Virus record (IMG/VR): IMGVR_UViG_3300038701_001640
Coordinates: 1 to 35,445 of that record
DNA length: 35,445 nucleotides
Strand: one strand, 5' to 3'
DNA from: a virus
Below the pieces are notes generated by a model, which saw only the letters and a list, made by a program, of their open reading frames with translations, did not search any database and was not told the DNA's origin. The translations under genes and the position numbers were made by a program. How positions within the stretch are numbered: the first letter of the stretch is position 1; every line of letters starts with the position of its first letter. Positions 4,578 through 35,193 of the stretch are shown one piece after another.

Positions 4578-5924
4578 ATGACACTTATTGAATTGCGCCA
4601 ACAGCGCGCCGACGCGGTGGACAGCCTGGCAGCACTCAACGACCAGATTGGAAGTGAGGCACCCACCGAGGAGCAGCGCACCAAATGGGATTCGCTGGAA
4701 AGCAATATTTCCGACTTGGACGCAAAGATTGCGTTTGAGGAGAAACGCGAAAAGCAGCGCGAACGCGCTGCCGCCCAAAAGGCCGAACGCCTGGAGCGCG
4801 AGAAAAAGCAAAACCGATCCAACCGCGAGAAGGACGACGAGGATTCTTTGAATCGCAATTTCAGTATTGTACGAGCCATGCGCGCTACCGTCAACCAACG
4901 CAATCTTGACGGCGCGGAGGCGGAAGCCTACCAAGAGGCCCAAAAGGAAGCGCGCGAATTTGGTAAAGACCTAGAGGGTAACATTGCCGTACCTGCCAGC
5001 ATGATGCGGGAGCAACGCGACCAGGTGGTTGGCACGGGCAATCTTGGTGGTGATTATGTGTTTACCCAATGGGCCGGCCACATCGAATCGTTGCAGCCAC
5101 GCCCCATTTTGGAGCGCGCCGGTGCAACGATCATGCGCGGGTTAACCAGCAATGTCAGCTTTACCAAAAACACGGCCGTTACGGCCTCATGGGAAGGTGA
5201 AACGGACGCCAACGCGGAGGTGACCACCACCGCGTCCACCCTGGACTTAACCCCTAATCGAGTTGGTGCGGAAAACTACATTTCCAAGCAACTGATGGTC
5301 CAGAGCAGCCCGGACATTGAAAATATCATGCGCCGGGAATTGCGCCAGGCTATTGAGAACGCGGTTGACCAAAAGGGTATTAACGGCGACGGCACCGGGA
5401 ACACACCAACCGGCATCCTGAACGCCTCCAGCGTGAACGTTATACCAATCGGCACCAACGGCGGTGCCATTGAATGGTTGGACGTGCTGAAATTGCCGCG
5501 CGAGGTTGCGGTTGATAACGCTGATTTGGGCCGTATGCGATTCTTAACCACCCCGGAATTGCGCGCGGAGCTCCAAGCCACCGAAAAAGCCACCGGCACC
5601 GCCCAATTTATTTGGCAGGATATGACCATGCCAATGGATGGGCAGGTGGTCAACGTTGGATCCGTCAACGGTTACCAGGCGATGGTATCAACCAACGTAC
5701 CAAACGACTTGACCAAAGGGACCGGCACGGATTTGAACGCGCTAATTTTCGGCCATTTCCCGGCTTTGTATATGGCAAATTGGGGCGGACTGGATATTGT
5801 GGTGGATCCGTATAGCGCGGCCAACCAGGCAAAGGTTCGCATTGTCGTAAACAGTTGGTGGGATATTGGCCTGCGCCATGACGAGCATTTTGCAGTCATT
5901 AAGGACGCAACGGTTACGGCGTAA
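4578..5924 (+). CDS. Major capsid protein, HK97 fold
   Basis: A 448-residue major head protein. Residues 1 to about 105 are a highly charged coiled coil (heptad-like, rich in Glu, Lys, Arg), matching the scaffolding delta domain removed by the S78 protease; the rest matches the HK97 coat domain, including a segment near residue 155 reading GGDYVFTQWAGHI and GINGDGTGNTPTGI near residue 270. The start is preceded by CTAAACCCCAAATAACTATG (4561-4580), the clearest copy of the recurring leader element. Length fits coat proteins with a fused scaffold domain. Confidence 0.95.
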   Translation: MTLIELRQQRADAVDSLAALNDQIGSEAPTEEQRTKWDSLESNISDLDAKIAFEEKREKQRERAAAQKAERLEREKKQNRSNREKDDEDSLNRNFSIVRAMRATVNQRNLDGAEAEAYQEAQKEAREFGKDLEGNIAVPASMMREQRDQVVGTGNLGGDYVFTQWAGHIESLQPRPILERAGATIMRGLTSNVSFTKNTAVTASWEGETDANAEVTTTASTLDLTPNRVGAENYISKQLMVQSSPDIENIMRRELRQAIENAVDQKGINGDGTGNTPTGILNASSVNVIPIGTNGGAIEWLDVLKLPREVAVDNADLGRMRFLTTPELRAELQATEKATGTAQFIWQDMTMPMDGQVVNVGSVNGYQAMVSTNVPNDLTKGTGTDLNALIFGHFPALYMANWGGLDIVVDPYSAANQAKVRIVVNSWWDIGLRHDEHFAVIKDATVTA

Positions 5925-5951
5925 GCTAAACCCCACTTGATACCCCCGAAC

Positions 5952-6000
5952 AACCCCACCCCGGCCGGTGCCTGACTTTTTAGGTGCCGGCCACCGGGTT
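5952..6000 (+). other. Long hairpin after the capsid gene
   Basis: An 11-bp stem (5963-5973 with 5982-5992, two G-U pairs) with an outer AACCC/GGGTT pairing (5952-5956 with 5996-6000). No T tract follows, so it may protect the capsid mRNA 3' end or attenuate transcription rather than fully terminate. TAAACCCC also occurs just upstream (5934-5941) without an adjacent start codon. Confidence 0.6.
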
Positions 6001-6017
6001 GTAATACCCCAAAAAAG

Positions 6018-6287
6018 ATGGCAAAGAAAAAGTTAGTAGAAGTAAAGTTTTTGCGGTCGCCGTCCGGGTCGTTCAAACTGGCATATCATGCCGGCGACCA
6101 TGGATTTGTTGATGCAAACCTCGTTACCAAATTAATCGACCAAGGGTTTGCGGAATTGATCGACGGCACCGCCGAAACAGGACAGAGCAACAAAGCCGGG
6201 AAGGCAGAGAATGCCACCAACGAACCAAAGAAAAAGCCAGGGCGAAAGCGTCCAACGCAAACCCCTAGCAAGCCCAAAAACGAATAA
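6018..6287 (+). CDS. Small head protein of unknown role
   Basis: An 89-residue protein in the slot between capsid and connector. The first 50 residues form a compact pattern (VEVKFLRSP, then KLAYHAGDHGFVDANLVTKLIDQGFAELID) that I associate with small proteins at this position in other siphophages; the C-terminal 40 residues are a disordered Lys/Pro/Asn-rich tail. It may be a head accessory protein, but this is inference from position. It ends 2 nt before the connector gene. AATACCCCAAAAAAG precedes its start. Confidence 0.7.
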   Translation: MAKKKLVEVKFLRSPSGSFKLAYHAGDHGFVDANLVTKLIDQGFAELIDGTAETGQSNKAGKAENATNEPKKKPGRKRPTQTPSKPKNE

Positions 6288-9411: not shown

Positions 9412-9728
9412 TATCATTGTTGCAGTGGACACCAGAGGCGTTCTACATGGCGACCGTTGACGAGATTATTGGTGCGATTAACGCCCACCGATCAGAGCGC
9501 AAACAGCAAAGCCGCGACCATTGGGAACAAACGCGACTGTTAGCCATGTACCTGGCGCAGCCTTACAGCAAAAGAATCAACGAGCCAACCGATATGTGGC
9601 GATTTGAGGACGAGCAAAGAAAGCCATTGCGCGTCGAAGAAATGGACGAGGCCACGAAAAAGCAGATTGCCGCCATGGACGAATATATGGCGCGCAAATT
9701 TGGCAAACACCAGAACAAAGACAAATGA
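9381..9728 (+). CDS. Tail assembly chaperone, downstream part (gpT-like)
   Basis: A 115-residue, helical, charged protein encoded in the -1 frame relative to the previous gene. It is probably made mainly as the C-terminal part of a frameshift fusion; the in-frame ATG at 9381 overlaps the upstream stop as ATGA, so independent initiation is also possible. The C-terminal part (IAAMDEYMARKFGKHQNKDK) is basic. It overlaps the tape measure gene by 4 nt. Confidence 0.83.
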   Translation: MTWADLRGSALSLLQWTPEAFYMATVDEIIGAINAHRSERKQQSRDHWEQTRLLAMYLAQPYSKRINEPTDMWRFEDEQRKPLRVEEMDEATKKQIAAMDEYMARKFGKHQNKDK

Positions 9729-11731
9729 GTTTAGCCGGCATAAAATTGCGGATTGGTGTTGACTTATCACCACTAGAGCGAGGCCTTAATAAAGCCACGT
9801 CTATGGTGAGTAAGAACACCGCCAAAATTACCAGAGTTGCGGATCGAATGACTGCAACCGTTGGGGCCGGTCTGGCGGCCATTGCCGCTGGTGCGTTGTC
9901 GAGTACATCGGATTTACAGGGTATGCAAAGCGCATTAACCACCATTGCCGGATCCGCCGAGGAGGCGCGCCGGCAGTTTGCGTTATTGCGAAAGGATGCC
10001 ACCAATAATCCCGGATTAACAATGGAACCGGCGGTAAAGGGTGTGGTTAGATTGCAAGCCGCCGGCCTCGAGTTTGAGCAAAGCCGCGAGGCGATAAATG
10101 AATTTGCCAACGCTATGGCGTCGGTGGGCAATACCGACATGGATGGTGTTACCCTGGCGTTATCACAGATCGTGGCGAAAGGCAAGGTGTTTGCCGAGGA
10201 AATCAACCAGATCAATGAGCGGGTGCCGCAGATTCGTGGCGTATTGAAAGACGTGTTAGGCACGGCAGATACGGAAAAGATTCAAGCCATGAATCTTGAG
10301 GTAGAGGAGTTTGTATCCATGATAACAGAAGGATTTAAACGGCTACCCCGCGCACAACAGACCATCAATACCGGGTTTAGGAATTTGGCAGATTCCGTAA
10401 AAATTGCATCCGGTGAGATTGGAGCCAGCATTGCCAATACCATACGCCTGCAGGACGTGCTATTTTCTGCCAATGTAAAGCTCAACCAGTTTGTTGAGTG
10501 GTGGAAAGGATTAAGCCCGGCGATACAACGCGCTGTACTGGCATTCACGGCCACCATTGCCGTGATCGGTCCGTTGGTTGCCATTGGTACGCGACTAGGG
10601 GCCGTCCTTGGATTCCTGACCAGCCCAATAACTCTGGTTGTTGCCGGTATCGCCGCATTGGCCGCCGGGGCCGTCTACCTTTACAACCGATTCGACAGTG
10701 TGCGCGGTGTGGTCCACGGCCTGGCATCCGCATTCCACGAATTGGGGCGCATTGCTAAGGAGGTAGCCGCCCAATACGTAAATGGGTTTAGGGAGATCAC
10801 GAAAGGCAATTTCAAAAAAGGGTTCGGCATGATTGCCGACGGGTTTAAGCGGTCTAATCCCATTGGGTTGGCACTATTTGAGGGCAAGCGGTTGGCCGGG
10901 TCGTTCAAAGAAGGATTCCAGAAAGGCGTAGAAAAAGACCCGTTAACGGTTGAGGATTTTTTCGCCCAGGCCGGCAGAGGGTTGGGTAACCTGCCCACGT
11001 CCGTACCTATGCCGGACCTAACGAAGCCTGTCGGCCAAGGATCAAGCGCGGACGCCATGACCATGGACGAAATAGACCAGCGCATTAGCGTTCCCGAAAT
11101 CATGGAGGGCAAAGAAGGTGGAGCCATTAGCATTCAAACGATTGCCGGTGGGTTGGAACGGTCCGCCATGGCCGCAAAGCAATTCCGGGAGGCTGGATTG
11201 CCCAATGTGTTTGCCAAGATGCAAGGCTCAATGGAAGATTGGAACGCGAAATTAGCCGAAACGCCGGTTTTGATGGATGCGATTAAGACCAATATAGTTG
11301 ACGGGTTGGCCGGTGCCTTTGATAGCCTTTTCTCCGCAATTCAAAGCGGCGCGGCTAATGCTTTTGAATCGTTCGTACAATCAGTAAAACGCGCCATTGC
11401 AGAGCTGGCAAAGCTATTGATCAAAACGGCCATTTTTGCCGGCCTGATTAGCCTGTTTGGCGGTGGGTCGTTCCTATCTCTTTTTAAGGGTGGACTAACC
11501 GGCGGCATTGGCGGCATGCTTAACCCAACCAAAATGGCCGGCGGCGGTCTTGTCACCGGACCCACGCCCACCATTTCCGGAGAGGCCGGACCAGAATTGA
11601 TAATACCACTAGCCGACCTACGAAAAGGCGGATTAGGCGGCGGCATGGATGTTACCACCAGGCTAATGGGTGAGGATTTATACCTGATGATTAAACGAGT
11701 TACGGAACGAATGGACCGGAAAATTGGATAA
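9725..11731 (+). CDS. Tail tape measure protein
   Basis: A 668-residue protein that sets tail length and is ejected with DNA. Residues about 65-205 match the tape measure domain (MQSALTTIAGSAEEARRQF, then TLALSQIVAKGKVFAEEINQ and VPQIRGVL). Hydrophobic helices occur around 271-322 and 555-580. The C-terminus has GPTPTISGEAGPELIIPL, a motif common near tape measure C-termini. It is short for the class and, at the usual 0.15 nm per residue, implies a tail near 100 nm. Confidence 0.93.
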   Translation: MSLAGIKLRIGVDLSPLERGLNKATSMVSKNTAKITRVADRMTATVGAGLAAIAAGALSSTSDLQGMQSALTTIAGSAEEARRQFALLRKDATNNPGLTMEPAVKGVVRLQAAGLEFEQSREAINEFANAMASVGNTDMDGVTLALSQIVAKGKVFAEEINQINERVPQIRGVLKDVLGTADTEKIQAMNLEVEEFVSMITEGFKRLPRAQQTINTGFRNLADSVKIASGEIGASIANTIRLQDVLFSANVKLNQFVEWWKGLSPAIQRAVLAFTATIAVIGPLVAIGTRLGAVLGFLTSPITLVVAGIAALAAGAVYLYNRFDSVRGVVHGLASAFHELGRIAKEVAAQYVNGFREITKGNFKKGFGMIADGFKRSNPIGLALFEGKRLAGSFKEGFQKGVEKDPLTVEDFFAQAGRGLGNLPTSVPMPDLTKPVGQGSSADAMTMDEIDQRISVPEIMEGKEGGAISIQTIAGGLERSAMAAKQFREAGLPNVFAKMQGSMEDWNAKLAETPVLMDAIKTNIVDGLAGAFDSLFSAIQSGAANAFESFVQSVKRAIAELAKLLIKTAIFAGLISLFGGGSFLSLFKGGLTGGIGGMLNPTKMAGGGLVTGPTPTISGEAGPELIIPLADLRKGGLGGGMDVTTRLMGEDLYLMIKRVTERMDRKIG

Positions 11732-18783: not shown

Positions 18784-19389
18784 TTACTGTTCAAAAACTT
18801 CATCCAATACATCGGATGGGTATACGTTCACGTAGCCCCACCGCGGATCGTTGGTTTTTTCGATCTCAATACCACGCGATTTGCACAATCGGCTTGCTTT
18901 GCGCCCAATGGCACTCGCTTGCTTGGTACCTACGTAGTACCCTTTCAGCCTAGCGTACCCGGCAACACTATAGTACTCCGGGCGAGTCAACACCTTAGCC
19001 TCCAGTGCGTCAATACGCTGTTGGTGTTCCTTACTGATGCGCTCCTGCTCTACCAGGGCTTTGGCATGGATCAGCGATATTTCAACCATACTCAATGGCT
19101 TGGCCTGATTCTGTTTCTCCAGTTCGCGCCATCGCCTAATCAATCGGGCGCGCACCTCGTCGTCGTATTTGCTCACCACGTACAGGCTTTCCTCTTTGGT
19201 CAGGCTGTACATGGGGCGGTTTTCGCCTTTTGCATCCTTGTATTCAACGAGCCCAAATTTGGACCCGTTAACTTTTTCCCAGGCTGGTTCCATATTCCGA
19301 ATGTCTCGCATTACATGCTTGTGCTGCCTTCCGGCAAAATCGGCAATTTCCAGGCTGGTTATGCGGGTTTTGCTAACCAACTCATTCAT
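18784..19389 (-). CDS. Rha-family phage regulatory protein
   Basis: A 201-residue protein. The N-terminal half matches the Rha domain: TSLEIADFAGRQHKHVMRDI, then PMYSLTKEESLYVVSKYDDE near residues 59-78. A helical middle (MVEISLIHAKALVEQERISK) leads to a C-terminal domain with SVAGYARLKGYYV and PRWGYVNVYPSDVLDEVF, which resembles antirepressor-type DNA-binding ends. Rha proteins act in lytic/lysogenic regulation. It overlaps the upstream gene by 8 nt and is read from the operon led by the folded region at 19697-19778. Confidence 0.87.
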   Translation of the reverse strand: MNELVSKTRITSLEIADFAGRQHKHVMRDIRNMEPAWEKVNGSKFGLVEYKDAKGENRPMYSLTKEESLYVVSKYDDEVRARLIRRWRELEKQNQAKPLSMVEISLIHAKALVEQERISKEHQQRIDALEAKVLTRPEYYSVAGYARLKGYYVGTKQASAIGRKASRLCKSRGIEIEKTNDPRWGYVNVYPSDVLDEVFEQ

Positions 19390-19678
19390 TGCTTTCGAAT
19401 TTTACAGGTGAGCCAATACATTTGTAATCACTAGCCTTGTCGTGTACGGTCTTAACAGCGATGGATTGCAAATGTGAAATCTTTGTCATGCGAGCAATGT
19501 ACGCTAGTACATCGGGTTCGTCCTTTGGCGGGTCGTTCTTGGTTCGCTCTAATAGCGCATAGAACAAGTTCATTTGCATGGCAAGGTAGTTTTCAACAGT
19601 AGCCTTGCGGCAAAAAGAACGGTAGCTTGCATCGAGCGTATCTTGCTCAATGTGCGGATTTGGATTCTCTTGGTTCAT
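19382..19678 (-). CDS. Hypothetical protein upstream of Rha
   Basis: A 98-residue, probably helical protein in operon with the Rha gene (8-nt overlap). It contains ASYRSFCRKATVENYLAMQM and NLFYALLERTKNDPP. No family recognised. Its 5' leader, about 20 nt upstream, is strongly folded, so its expression may be controlled at RNA level. Confidence 0.65.
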   Translation of the reverse strand: MNQENPNPHIEQDTLDASYRSFCRKATVENYLAMQMNLFYALLERTKNDPPKDEPDVLAYIARMTKISHLQSIAVKTVHDKASDYKCIGSPVKFESNE

Positions 19679-19696
19679 TGCTAGAGAATTGTATGC

Positions 19697-19778
19697 GAGT
19701 ACCCCCGTAGGGCTGAACCACTGTCTCAGGAGACAGAGCTACAACCGCTTTCGCAGGTTGTGACCCCTAGAGGTACTC
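19697..19778 (-). ncRNA. Structured 5' leader or small RNA candidate
   Basis: A closed, branched fold: GAGTACC (19697-19703) pairs with GGTACTC (19772-19778); TAGGG (19708-19712) with CCCTA (19765-19769); inside are two hairpins, CTGTCT/AGACAG (19721-19726 with 19731-19736) and ACAACC/GGTTGT (19741-19746 with 19756-19761, apical GC pairs and a 4-nt loop). It lies just upstream of the minus-strand ATG at 19678. The fold is strand-symmetric, so it could act as RNA leader, independent RNA or DNA cruciform. Not a recognised tRNA or riboswitch. Confidence 0.6.
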
Positions 19779-19826
19779 TTATCGTCAATAAAATATAATC
19801 AGGATTTCTCCTGAGATCAGTGGTTC
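19715..19826. repeat. Near-perfect 20-bp inverted repeat
   Basis: GAACCACTGTCTCAGGAGA at 19715-19733 is the reverse complement of TCTCCTGAGATCAGTGGTTC at 19807-19826 except for one extra base. The right copy also forms its own hairpin TCAGGA/TCCTGA (19799-19814). Pairing between copies would disrupt both the local hairpins and the fold at 19697-19778, so two exclusive structures are possible; alternatively the copies are two operators for one regulator. Confidence 0.85.
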
Positions 19827-19878
19827 GACGACAACATACAACGATTTTTTGATAAAGTCAATCAACGAGCAGTAAACG

Positions 19879-19930
19879 CTAACACACGCTACCCGCCCAC
19901 CCTATTGGGCGGCGGGTAGCTAGGCGTTAG
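19879..19930. other. Strong hairpin downstream of minus-strand gene
   Basis: A perfect 10-bp stem GCTACCCGCC (19888-19897) with GGCGGGTAGC (19911-19920), with outer CTAAC/GTTAG (19879-19883, 19926-19930). It directly follows the stop of the small minus-strand gene at 19932, so it probably terminates or protects that transcript, though no clear T tract follows on the minus strand. Confidence 0.65.
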
Positions 19931-19931
19931 T

Positions 19932-20084
19932 CTAATAGCCCAAAAATCCCTTAAAAATCAGATGGTAAAAAATTATGGCGCACAATGTTGAAACCAGCAT
20001 AATTTTTAACACCCACCAAATGGCGTCAACGTACCCTTGTTCGTACATTTCCGCCTCCCTTTTGGTTAATTTCTCGTCTTTCAT
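19932..20084 (-). CDS. Small single-pass membrane protein
   Basis: A 50-residue protein starting MKDEKLTKREAEMYEQGY, followed by one hydrophobic helix (about residues 22-44, WWVLKIMLVSTLCAIIFYHL). The start shares the MKDE opening and surrounding bases with the neighbouring gene at 20362. It is 2 nt downstream of that gene's stop, suggesting an operon. Function unknown. Confidence 0.6.
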   Translation of the reverse strand: MKDEKLTKREAEMYEQGYVDAIWWVLKIMLVSTLCAIIFYHLIFKGFLGY

Positions 20085-32376: not shown

Positions 32377-32423
32377 GGTAGGGAAAAGGACGTTGTTGTT
32401 AGTATACGTTTGATGTTGATTTG

Positions 32424-32454
32424 ACCATCGCCAAAAGAGGCGGTGGTTTTTTTT
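32424..32454 (+). terminator. Terminator after subtilase gene
   Basis: ACCATCGCC (32424-32432) pairs with GGCGGTGGT (32439-32447, one G-U), 6-nt loop, eight T (32447-32454). Confidence 0.88.
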
Positions 32455-32503
32455 ACCCACTCAAATTAAATACGCAAACGTGTAACCTTCAACACTTAAA
32501 AAC

Positions 32504-32534
32504 TTGCGTTGTGTTACGCAAATGCGTATATTTA
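32504..32534 (+). promoter_or_regulatory. Promoter with overlapping operator-like repeat
   Basis: TTG (32504-32506), 20-nt spacer, TATATTTA (32527-32534), 33 nt before ATG 32568. TTGCGT (32504-32509) and ACGCAA (32516-32521) form an inverted repeat inside the promoter, and TACGCAAA occurs at 32471-32478 and 32515-32522. The XRE protein at the end of this operon is a natural candidate to bind. Confidence 0.6.
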
Positions 32535-34834: not shown

Positions 34835-35092
34835 ATGAAAAAGAAAAAGTTTATAACAGAAATGTGTAAGCTAATCGAAAGTGCTTACAGAAGAGGGTAT
34901 AGTCAAGGGGCATACTTTTCGACAGAAAAAGGAATGACCCACGCTGAAGCGTTGCAATTCAGGCATGAAATTCAAAGAGATAGATACAAGTACGTTTGTC
35001 CACCTCCGCAACGTGGATTTGGGTTTGATAAGCAATGTCAAGAGCAAAGAGAAAGGGAAATATATTTACTAATTCAGAAGCATTTGGATTAG
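34835..35092 (+). CDS. Hypothetical protein, AT-rich
   Basis: An 85-residue basic, helical protein (MCKLIESAYRRGYSQGAYFS, HAEALQFRHEIQRDRYKYV). No family recognised. AT-richer than core genes. Located between HNH and the right end, so it could be a packaging accessory or an unrelated acquired gene. Confidence 0.62.
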   Translation: MKKKKFITEMCKLIESAYRRGYSQGAYFSTEKGMTHAEALQFRHEIQRDRYKYVCPPPQRGFGFDKQCQEQREREIYLLIQKHLD

Positions 35093-35101
35093 TAAATAAA
35101 A

Positions 35102-35136
35102 AGACTTCCTAAAGCGCACCAATCGCCAGGAAGTCT
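35102..35136. terminator. Hairpin with T tract on the minus side
   Basis: Perfect 9-bp stem AGACTTCCT (35102-35110) with AGGAAGTCT (35128-35136), 17-nt loop. The T tract lies on the minus strand, yet the neighbouring genes are on the plus strand, so it may be bidirectional or act as a 3' end stabiliser. Confidence 0.5.
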
Positions 35137-35193
35137 AAACAGAATTAAAATGGATTCAAAAGATAAGTAAATTAAATAATAATACCCACCACT

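Follow-up and report, generated by a model that had tools for sequence, protein, structure and literature searches.

A probable C4-type antisense RNA in the leader of the p98-rha operon of a virus genome

The window, that is, the whole stretch of DNA that was analysed, is a 35-kb virus record (IMGVR_UViG_3300038701_001640, 35,445 nucleotides). It encodes a tyrosine integrase carrying Phage_int_SAM_5 and Arm-DNA-bind_5, domains that are common in Bacteroidota, a terminase for which only distant relatives were found, and 98-aa and 382-aa proteins for which a search for viral relatives returned none. Two tRNA genes, Met (CAT) and Thr (TGT), are found in the phage at 29171-29244 and 29382-29455. 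On the minus strand, a small ORF stops at 19932 and is followed by a hairpin (19930-19879), a promoter-like sequence (19861-19833), the structured element described here, p98, and rha. The genes rha and p98 overlap by 8 nt, and p98 starts 18 nt after the junction. A previous sequence-only reading of this DNA had noted a folded element upstream of the Rha operon, and the element does stand at the head of p98-rha, on the minus strand. The features of the leader and the operon are the following:

19833-19861, minus strand: promoter-like sequence TTGACT-17-TATGTT, from a consensus scan and the leader alignment.
19807-19826, minus strand: putative upstream target GAACCACUGAUCUCAGGAGA, located where the predicted transcript begins and able to form 19 bp with the antisense segment.
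19799-19814, minus strand: terminator-like hairpin UCAGGA-GAAA-UCCUGA followed by an A+U-rich run, from sequence scan and folding.
19697-19778, minus strand: putative three-way-junction antisense RNA, from the fold and six homologues.
19778-19769/19706-19697 and 19767-19763/19713-19709, minus strand: junction helix P1.
19761-19741, minus strand: junction helix P2, with a GAAA tetraloop.
19740-19716, minus strand: junction helix P3.
19714-19733, minus strand: putative antisense segment UCUCCUGAGACAGUGGUUCA, made up of the P3 loop, the P3 3' strand and the joining strand.
19671-19677, minus strand: putative start-codon target UGAACCA, whose first letter is the U of AUG and which can form 7 bp with UGGUUCA in the antisense segment.
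19664-19689, minus strand: hairpin AUUCUCU-AGCAAUGAACCA-AGAGAAU with the start codon in its loop and a 7 bp stem, as seen in the window.
19382-19678, minus strand: p98, a 98-aa ORF from the ORF list in the place of P1 icd, with no Pfam or PHROG match.
18784-19389, minus strand: rha (PF09669; PHROG 'anti-repressor Ant').

The hairpin at 19879-19930 is strong (z about -4), comes immediately after the stop of the small ORF preceding it on the minus strand, and lacks a U run; it is likely an insulator or a terminator, and it loosely resembles integron attC sites. Part of the promoter-like sequence, TGTATGTT, is common to the other loci in the leader alignment, and TGTATGTTTG, which we take to be close to the Bacteroidota -7 box TAnnTTTG, occurs exactly in five of the seven loci, the window's version being one T shorter. 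From the consensus match and general knowledge of Bacteroidota promoters, a start of transcription is predicted near 19826; since the promoter-like sequence precedes it, the complement 19826-19807 would begin about at this predicted start. An inverted motif, TTGTATG/CATACAA, at 19835-19841 and 19689-19695, flanks the leader; it might represent a pair of operators or form an outer stem, P0.

The closed multibranch fold with two inner hairpins that had been described at 19697-19778 is the minimum free energy structure on both strands. Read on the minus strand (19778-19697), it is an 82-nt three-way junction with a folding energy of -39.8 kcal/mol (z -3.4), versus -32.7 kcal/mol (z -2.1) on the plus strand, and it is on the minus strand that the GAAA tetraloop is present. 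The plus-strand reading was discarded: it offers no notable downstream gene and a weaker fold, and the homologues are oriented like the ORF 3' of them. The 151-nt region 19690-19840 reaches a z of -5.5 when folded as the minus strand and -3.7 as the plus strand, and none of 200 shuffles was as stable. The pairing density had also been said to be far above that of the neighbouring DNA, which is somewhat too strong a claim: on a coarse 120-nt grid, several other places of the window have an equal or lower folding z. Very low values occur at 5941-6060 on the plus strand, after a gene that ends at 5924, at 35041-35160 on the plus strand, close to the right end of the window, at 32401-32520 on the plus strand, and at 9721-9840 on the minus strand.

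The long-range complement between 19715-19733 and 19807-19826, earlier given as a near-perfect 20-bp inverted repeat, consists of 19 bp with one bulged A. The further hairpin expected at the outside complement is present at 19799-19814 and, because it overlaps the 3' part of the upstream target, hairpin and target exclude each other. The incompatibility of the alternatives was likewise borne out, as the pairings of the window leader are mutually exclusive, with two states about 7 kcal/mol apart. Such an arrangement might be read as a transcription attenuator, in which the 19814-19799 hairpin terminates and pairing of the upstream target sets the readthrough. The A+U-rich tail of the terminator-like site, and the presence of a target-overlapping hairpin in other leaders too, would fit this reading. 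However, the terminator is transcribed before the antisense partner, and control of termination in cis would thus be impossible without a second RNA; moreover, the stems are weak, the tails are not pure U runs, and the pairing at the start codon is left unexplained, which together make an attenuator very improbable. The sequence-only reading had left the strand open and placed attenuator, regulated leader and structured small RNA side by side; a structured regulatory RNA is what stands, the comparative evidence favours a small RNA from the minus strand, and the attenuator is not the best reading.

A search for homologues was carried out with a covariance model (R1) built from the window sequence alone and run over a sample of 395 Bacteroidota genomes. 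One full-length match was obtained, L061 (33.9 bits, E 4.3e-4 per genome), which by its E-value alone could be due to chance given that 395 genomes were searched; E-values from these short-calibrated models are in any case rough. A DNA pattern common to the window and L061 led to L093, in a virus contig, and a model of these three (R3) led to L222 and L223 in two more genomes. R3 then added L226 and L227, two copies in one prophage (L228, 5747-5825 and 9646-9725); these differ from each other in their antisense and target sequences, and each has P22_AR_N or KilA-N genes nearby. The six further copies all lie in phage, prophage or mobile-element DNA of Bacteroidota. Exact DNA patterns from the element and blastn against phages gave no match; loose DNA patterns gave many false matches, which were removed by the covariance model.

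The same junction fits all seven loci, with 22 of the 33 pairs changed on both sides. In the alignment of the seven junctions, 89.5% of the cells are paired, versus 37-45% when the partners are slid; this count favours the structure, since the matches were found and aligned with the model. Homologues breaking the pairings without compensation would have spoken against the fold, and the opposite was seen, with pairings kept through changes on both sides. A small RNA from 19826-19790 alone was also considered and dropped, once the homologues had shown that conservation is highest in the junction RNA.

A small ORF lies 3' of the junction RNA in all seven loci. These ORFs have only a loose N-terminus in common, part of which is the antisense target itself. 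The gene that follows is of the antirepressor type at some loci, not at all seven: it encodes Rha in the window, KilA-N in L093, and again KilA-N, overlapping, after L227. The module of L222 and L223 has primase-helicase-type and Fic-like genes of satellite-like elements in its vicinity, and that of L061 an integrase and an unrecognised 487-aa protein. The element is absent from the relatives of Rha that were retrieved from other phages and genomes. The rha genes of Prevotella-group genomes (L019, L020, L024, and L026) have a different hairpin leader directly upstream, whose stems seem to change together and which has no Rfam match.

The targets provide an independent test, as they lay outside every model and pattern used to find the loci. 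In all seven, the antisense segment can form 17-20 bp with a site that adjoins TGTATGTTTG or a near-match and begins 47-56 nt before the junction. In all seven, too, 7-9 bp can form at the start of the small ORF, between the segment and the UG of its AUG plus the next codons; this AUG lies 18-25 nt after P1. One contiguous segment of the junction matches both targets throughout. The antisense and start-codon sequences are UGGUUCA/UGAACCA in the window, UUUUUGCA/UGCAAAAA in L061, UUGUGCA/UGCACAA in L093, UUUUGUCA/UGACAAAA in L223, and UUUUGACA/UGUCAAAA in L227. In the window, this second target (19677-19671, at the p98 start codon) falls outside the interval given by the sequence-only reading. 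Taken alone, its pairing is unexceptional, being the joint best of the 36 starts in the phage. Among the 5040 permutations of segments and targets, the true assignment has the lowest summed duplex energy for both target sets, a test in which the CA/UG part of the start pairing does not count because it is common to all loci. L226 and L227, which share one prophage, each pair well with their own targets only. The comparison of loci thus shows that the segment and both targets change together, and structure and target pairing of the junction RNA are strongly supported.

These properties bear on two further explanations. A DNA-level element (an operator pair, a cruciform, or the end of a mobile element), whose inverted repeats merely resemble RNA structure, would account for the TTGTATG/CATACAA pair that flanks the region and for the similar motifs that flank most of the homologues. 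The fixed spacing to the AUG in reading direction, the G-U pairs in the helices, the GAAA tetraloop conserved on one strand, and the centring of the target pairing on start codons are all foreign to it, and it hardly deserves credence. A purely cis-acting two-state leader, with nothing acting in trans, is a stronger contender. Its ON state would have the segment held by the 5' end and the start codon free, its OFF state would have the segment held by the junction or the start codon, and folding kinetics, cleavage or a bound factor would set the choice. In line with such a switch, transcription reaches the 5' target first, and little energy separates the two states in each of the seven leaders (B minus A, -0.5 to -7.3 kcal/mol). 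On the other hand, structure and gene order closely resemble those of C4, which is a trans-acting RNA, and the differing specificity of two copies in one prophage makes most sense in trans, so that a purely cis-acting leader appears unlikely.

The explanation that we consider probable is that the element is a C4-type antisense RNA, made from the minus strand within the p98-rha leader, which blocks translation of p98-rha and sets the immunity of the phage. The junction structure and its two co-varying complementarities are seen directly in the compared loci; for transcription, processing and repression by the junction RNA, which we infer, the following course is proposed. The junction RNA would be cut out of the p98-rha leader, perhaps by RNase P or another enzyme, and once free would pair in trans with the start-codon site of the p98 mRNA, stopping translation of p98. 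Translation of rha would drop along with it, because the two frames overlap. In a lysogen, the antirepressor-type protein would thus be kept off, and the cell would be immune to phages of the same antisense specificity. The upstream site may be a second target, a decoy, or a switch in cis; since it can sequester the antisense segment of its own molecule, repression may be delayed or adjusted by it, or coupled to termination at 19814-19799.

A broader reading, which we put forward tentatively and rate as somewhat below an even chance, is that these RNAs form a distinct class of immunity RNAs in Bacteroidota phages and satellite-like elements. An address of about 20 nt would recur at the transcript's 5' end, as its complement in the junction RNA, and partly at the start codon; it would serve as a self-contained immunity code, and drift of the address would create new, mutually blind immunity groups, several of which might coexist in one prophage. 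If the C4-type explanation is true, RNA-based immunity of the P1/P7 type would extend to phages of another phylum, and a clan of orphan structured RNAs (c4-2 and its relatives) would gain a concrete function. It would also allow targets and immunity groups to be read from sequence by a rule: the strand preceding the inner helix of P1 is the complement both of the transcript's 5' end and of the AUG together with the 5-7 nt that follow it.

With regard to known families, the sequence-only reading had recognised no riboswitch, tRNA or retron, and the Rfam search that it proposed leads to the same result: Rfam and ARAGORN gave only chance-level matches at the element, the sole matches in the window being the two tRNA genes at about 29 kb, and a retron was set aside as no reverse transcriptase occurs among the ten nearby or key proteins scanned. 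Other phage antisense RNAs that keep an antirepressor or early genes off are the CI RNA of P4 and the sar RNA of P22; both resemble the proposed RNA in this role and differ from it in structure and gene layout. Antisense control of this kind is described for sar (PMC12197685).

The closest parallel is C4 of phages P1 and P7 (RF01695, with c4-a1b1, RF03163), the mechanism of which has been summarised (PMC5320573; PMC12197685). In P1, the order is promoters, a1/b1, C4 RNA (a 77-nt three-way junction), a2/b2 at the start of icd (73 aa), and ant1, which overlaps icd by 4 nt; C4 is processed by RNase P and acts in trans. The window has the same order of parts as c4-icd-ant: promoter, upstream target, junction RNA, start-site target, small ORF, and antirepressor-type gene. 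In both systems the junction RNA measures about 80 nt, its first inner hairpin is capped by a tetraloop, and its second hairpin and joining strand hold the antisense parts, with targets both upstream and where a small ORF overlapping an antirepressor gene begins; in the window, the three-way junction of this size indeed lies between an upstream target and a small ORF with an antirepressor gene. They differ in that C4 has two separate parts of 7-8 nt (a and b), the second pairing near the ribosome-binding site, whereas the RNAs described here have one contiguous segment, which can form 17-20 bp with the upstream site and 7-9 bp right at the AUG; separate a'/b' parts with a1/b1 and a2/b2 targets were not found in the window. 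The Rfam C4 model has no match in the window at E <= 10, while it scores 68.8 bits in P1; in reverse, R3 gives P1 C4 only 11.8 bits.

The other member of the clan, c4-2 (RF02944, clan CL00128 with C4), has no match in the window at its cut-off of 41 bits, and L093, L222, and L223 also remain below it. L061 (1498-1582) does match c4-2 when the filters are permissive, with 45.1 bits; the Rfam default filters lose this match although it exceeds the gathering score, so that c4-2 may be under-reported. Among the papers found, none describes a target or function of c4-2 or reports RNAs of this type from phages of Bacteroidota; targets may have been remarked on earlier. Because c4-2 misses the window but matches its homologue L061, the window element is best regarded as a c4-2 relative that has diverged too far for Rfam to detect. 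The two have in common the three-way junction, the GAAA tetraloop in the first inner hairpin, and the GGG/CCC architecture, with UAUGGG/CCCUAA around the inner part of P1. They differ in the joining strand, which ends in AGgA in the c4-2 consensus and in CA here, and the RNAs described here come together with their targets.
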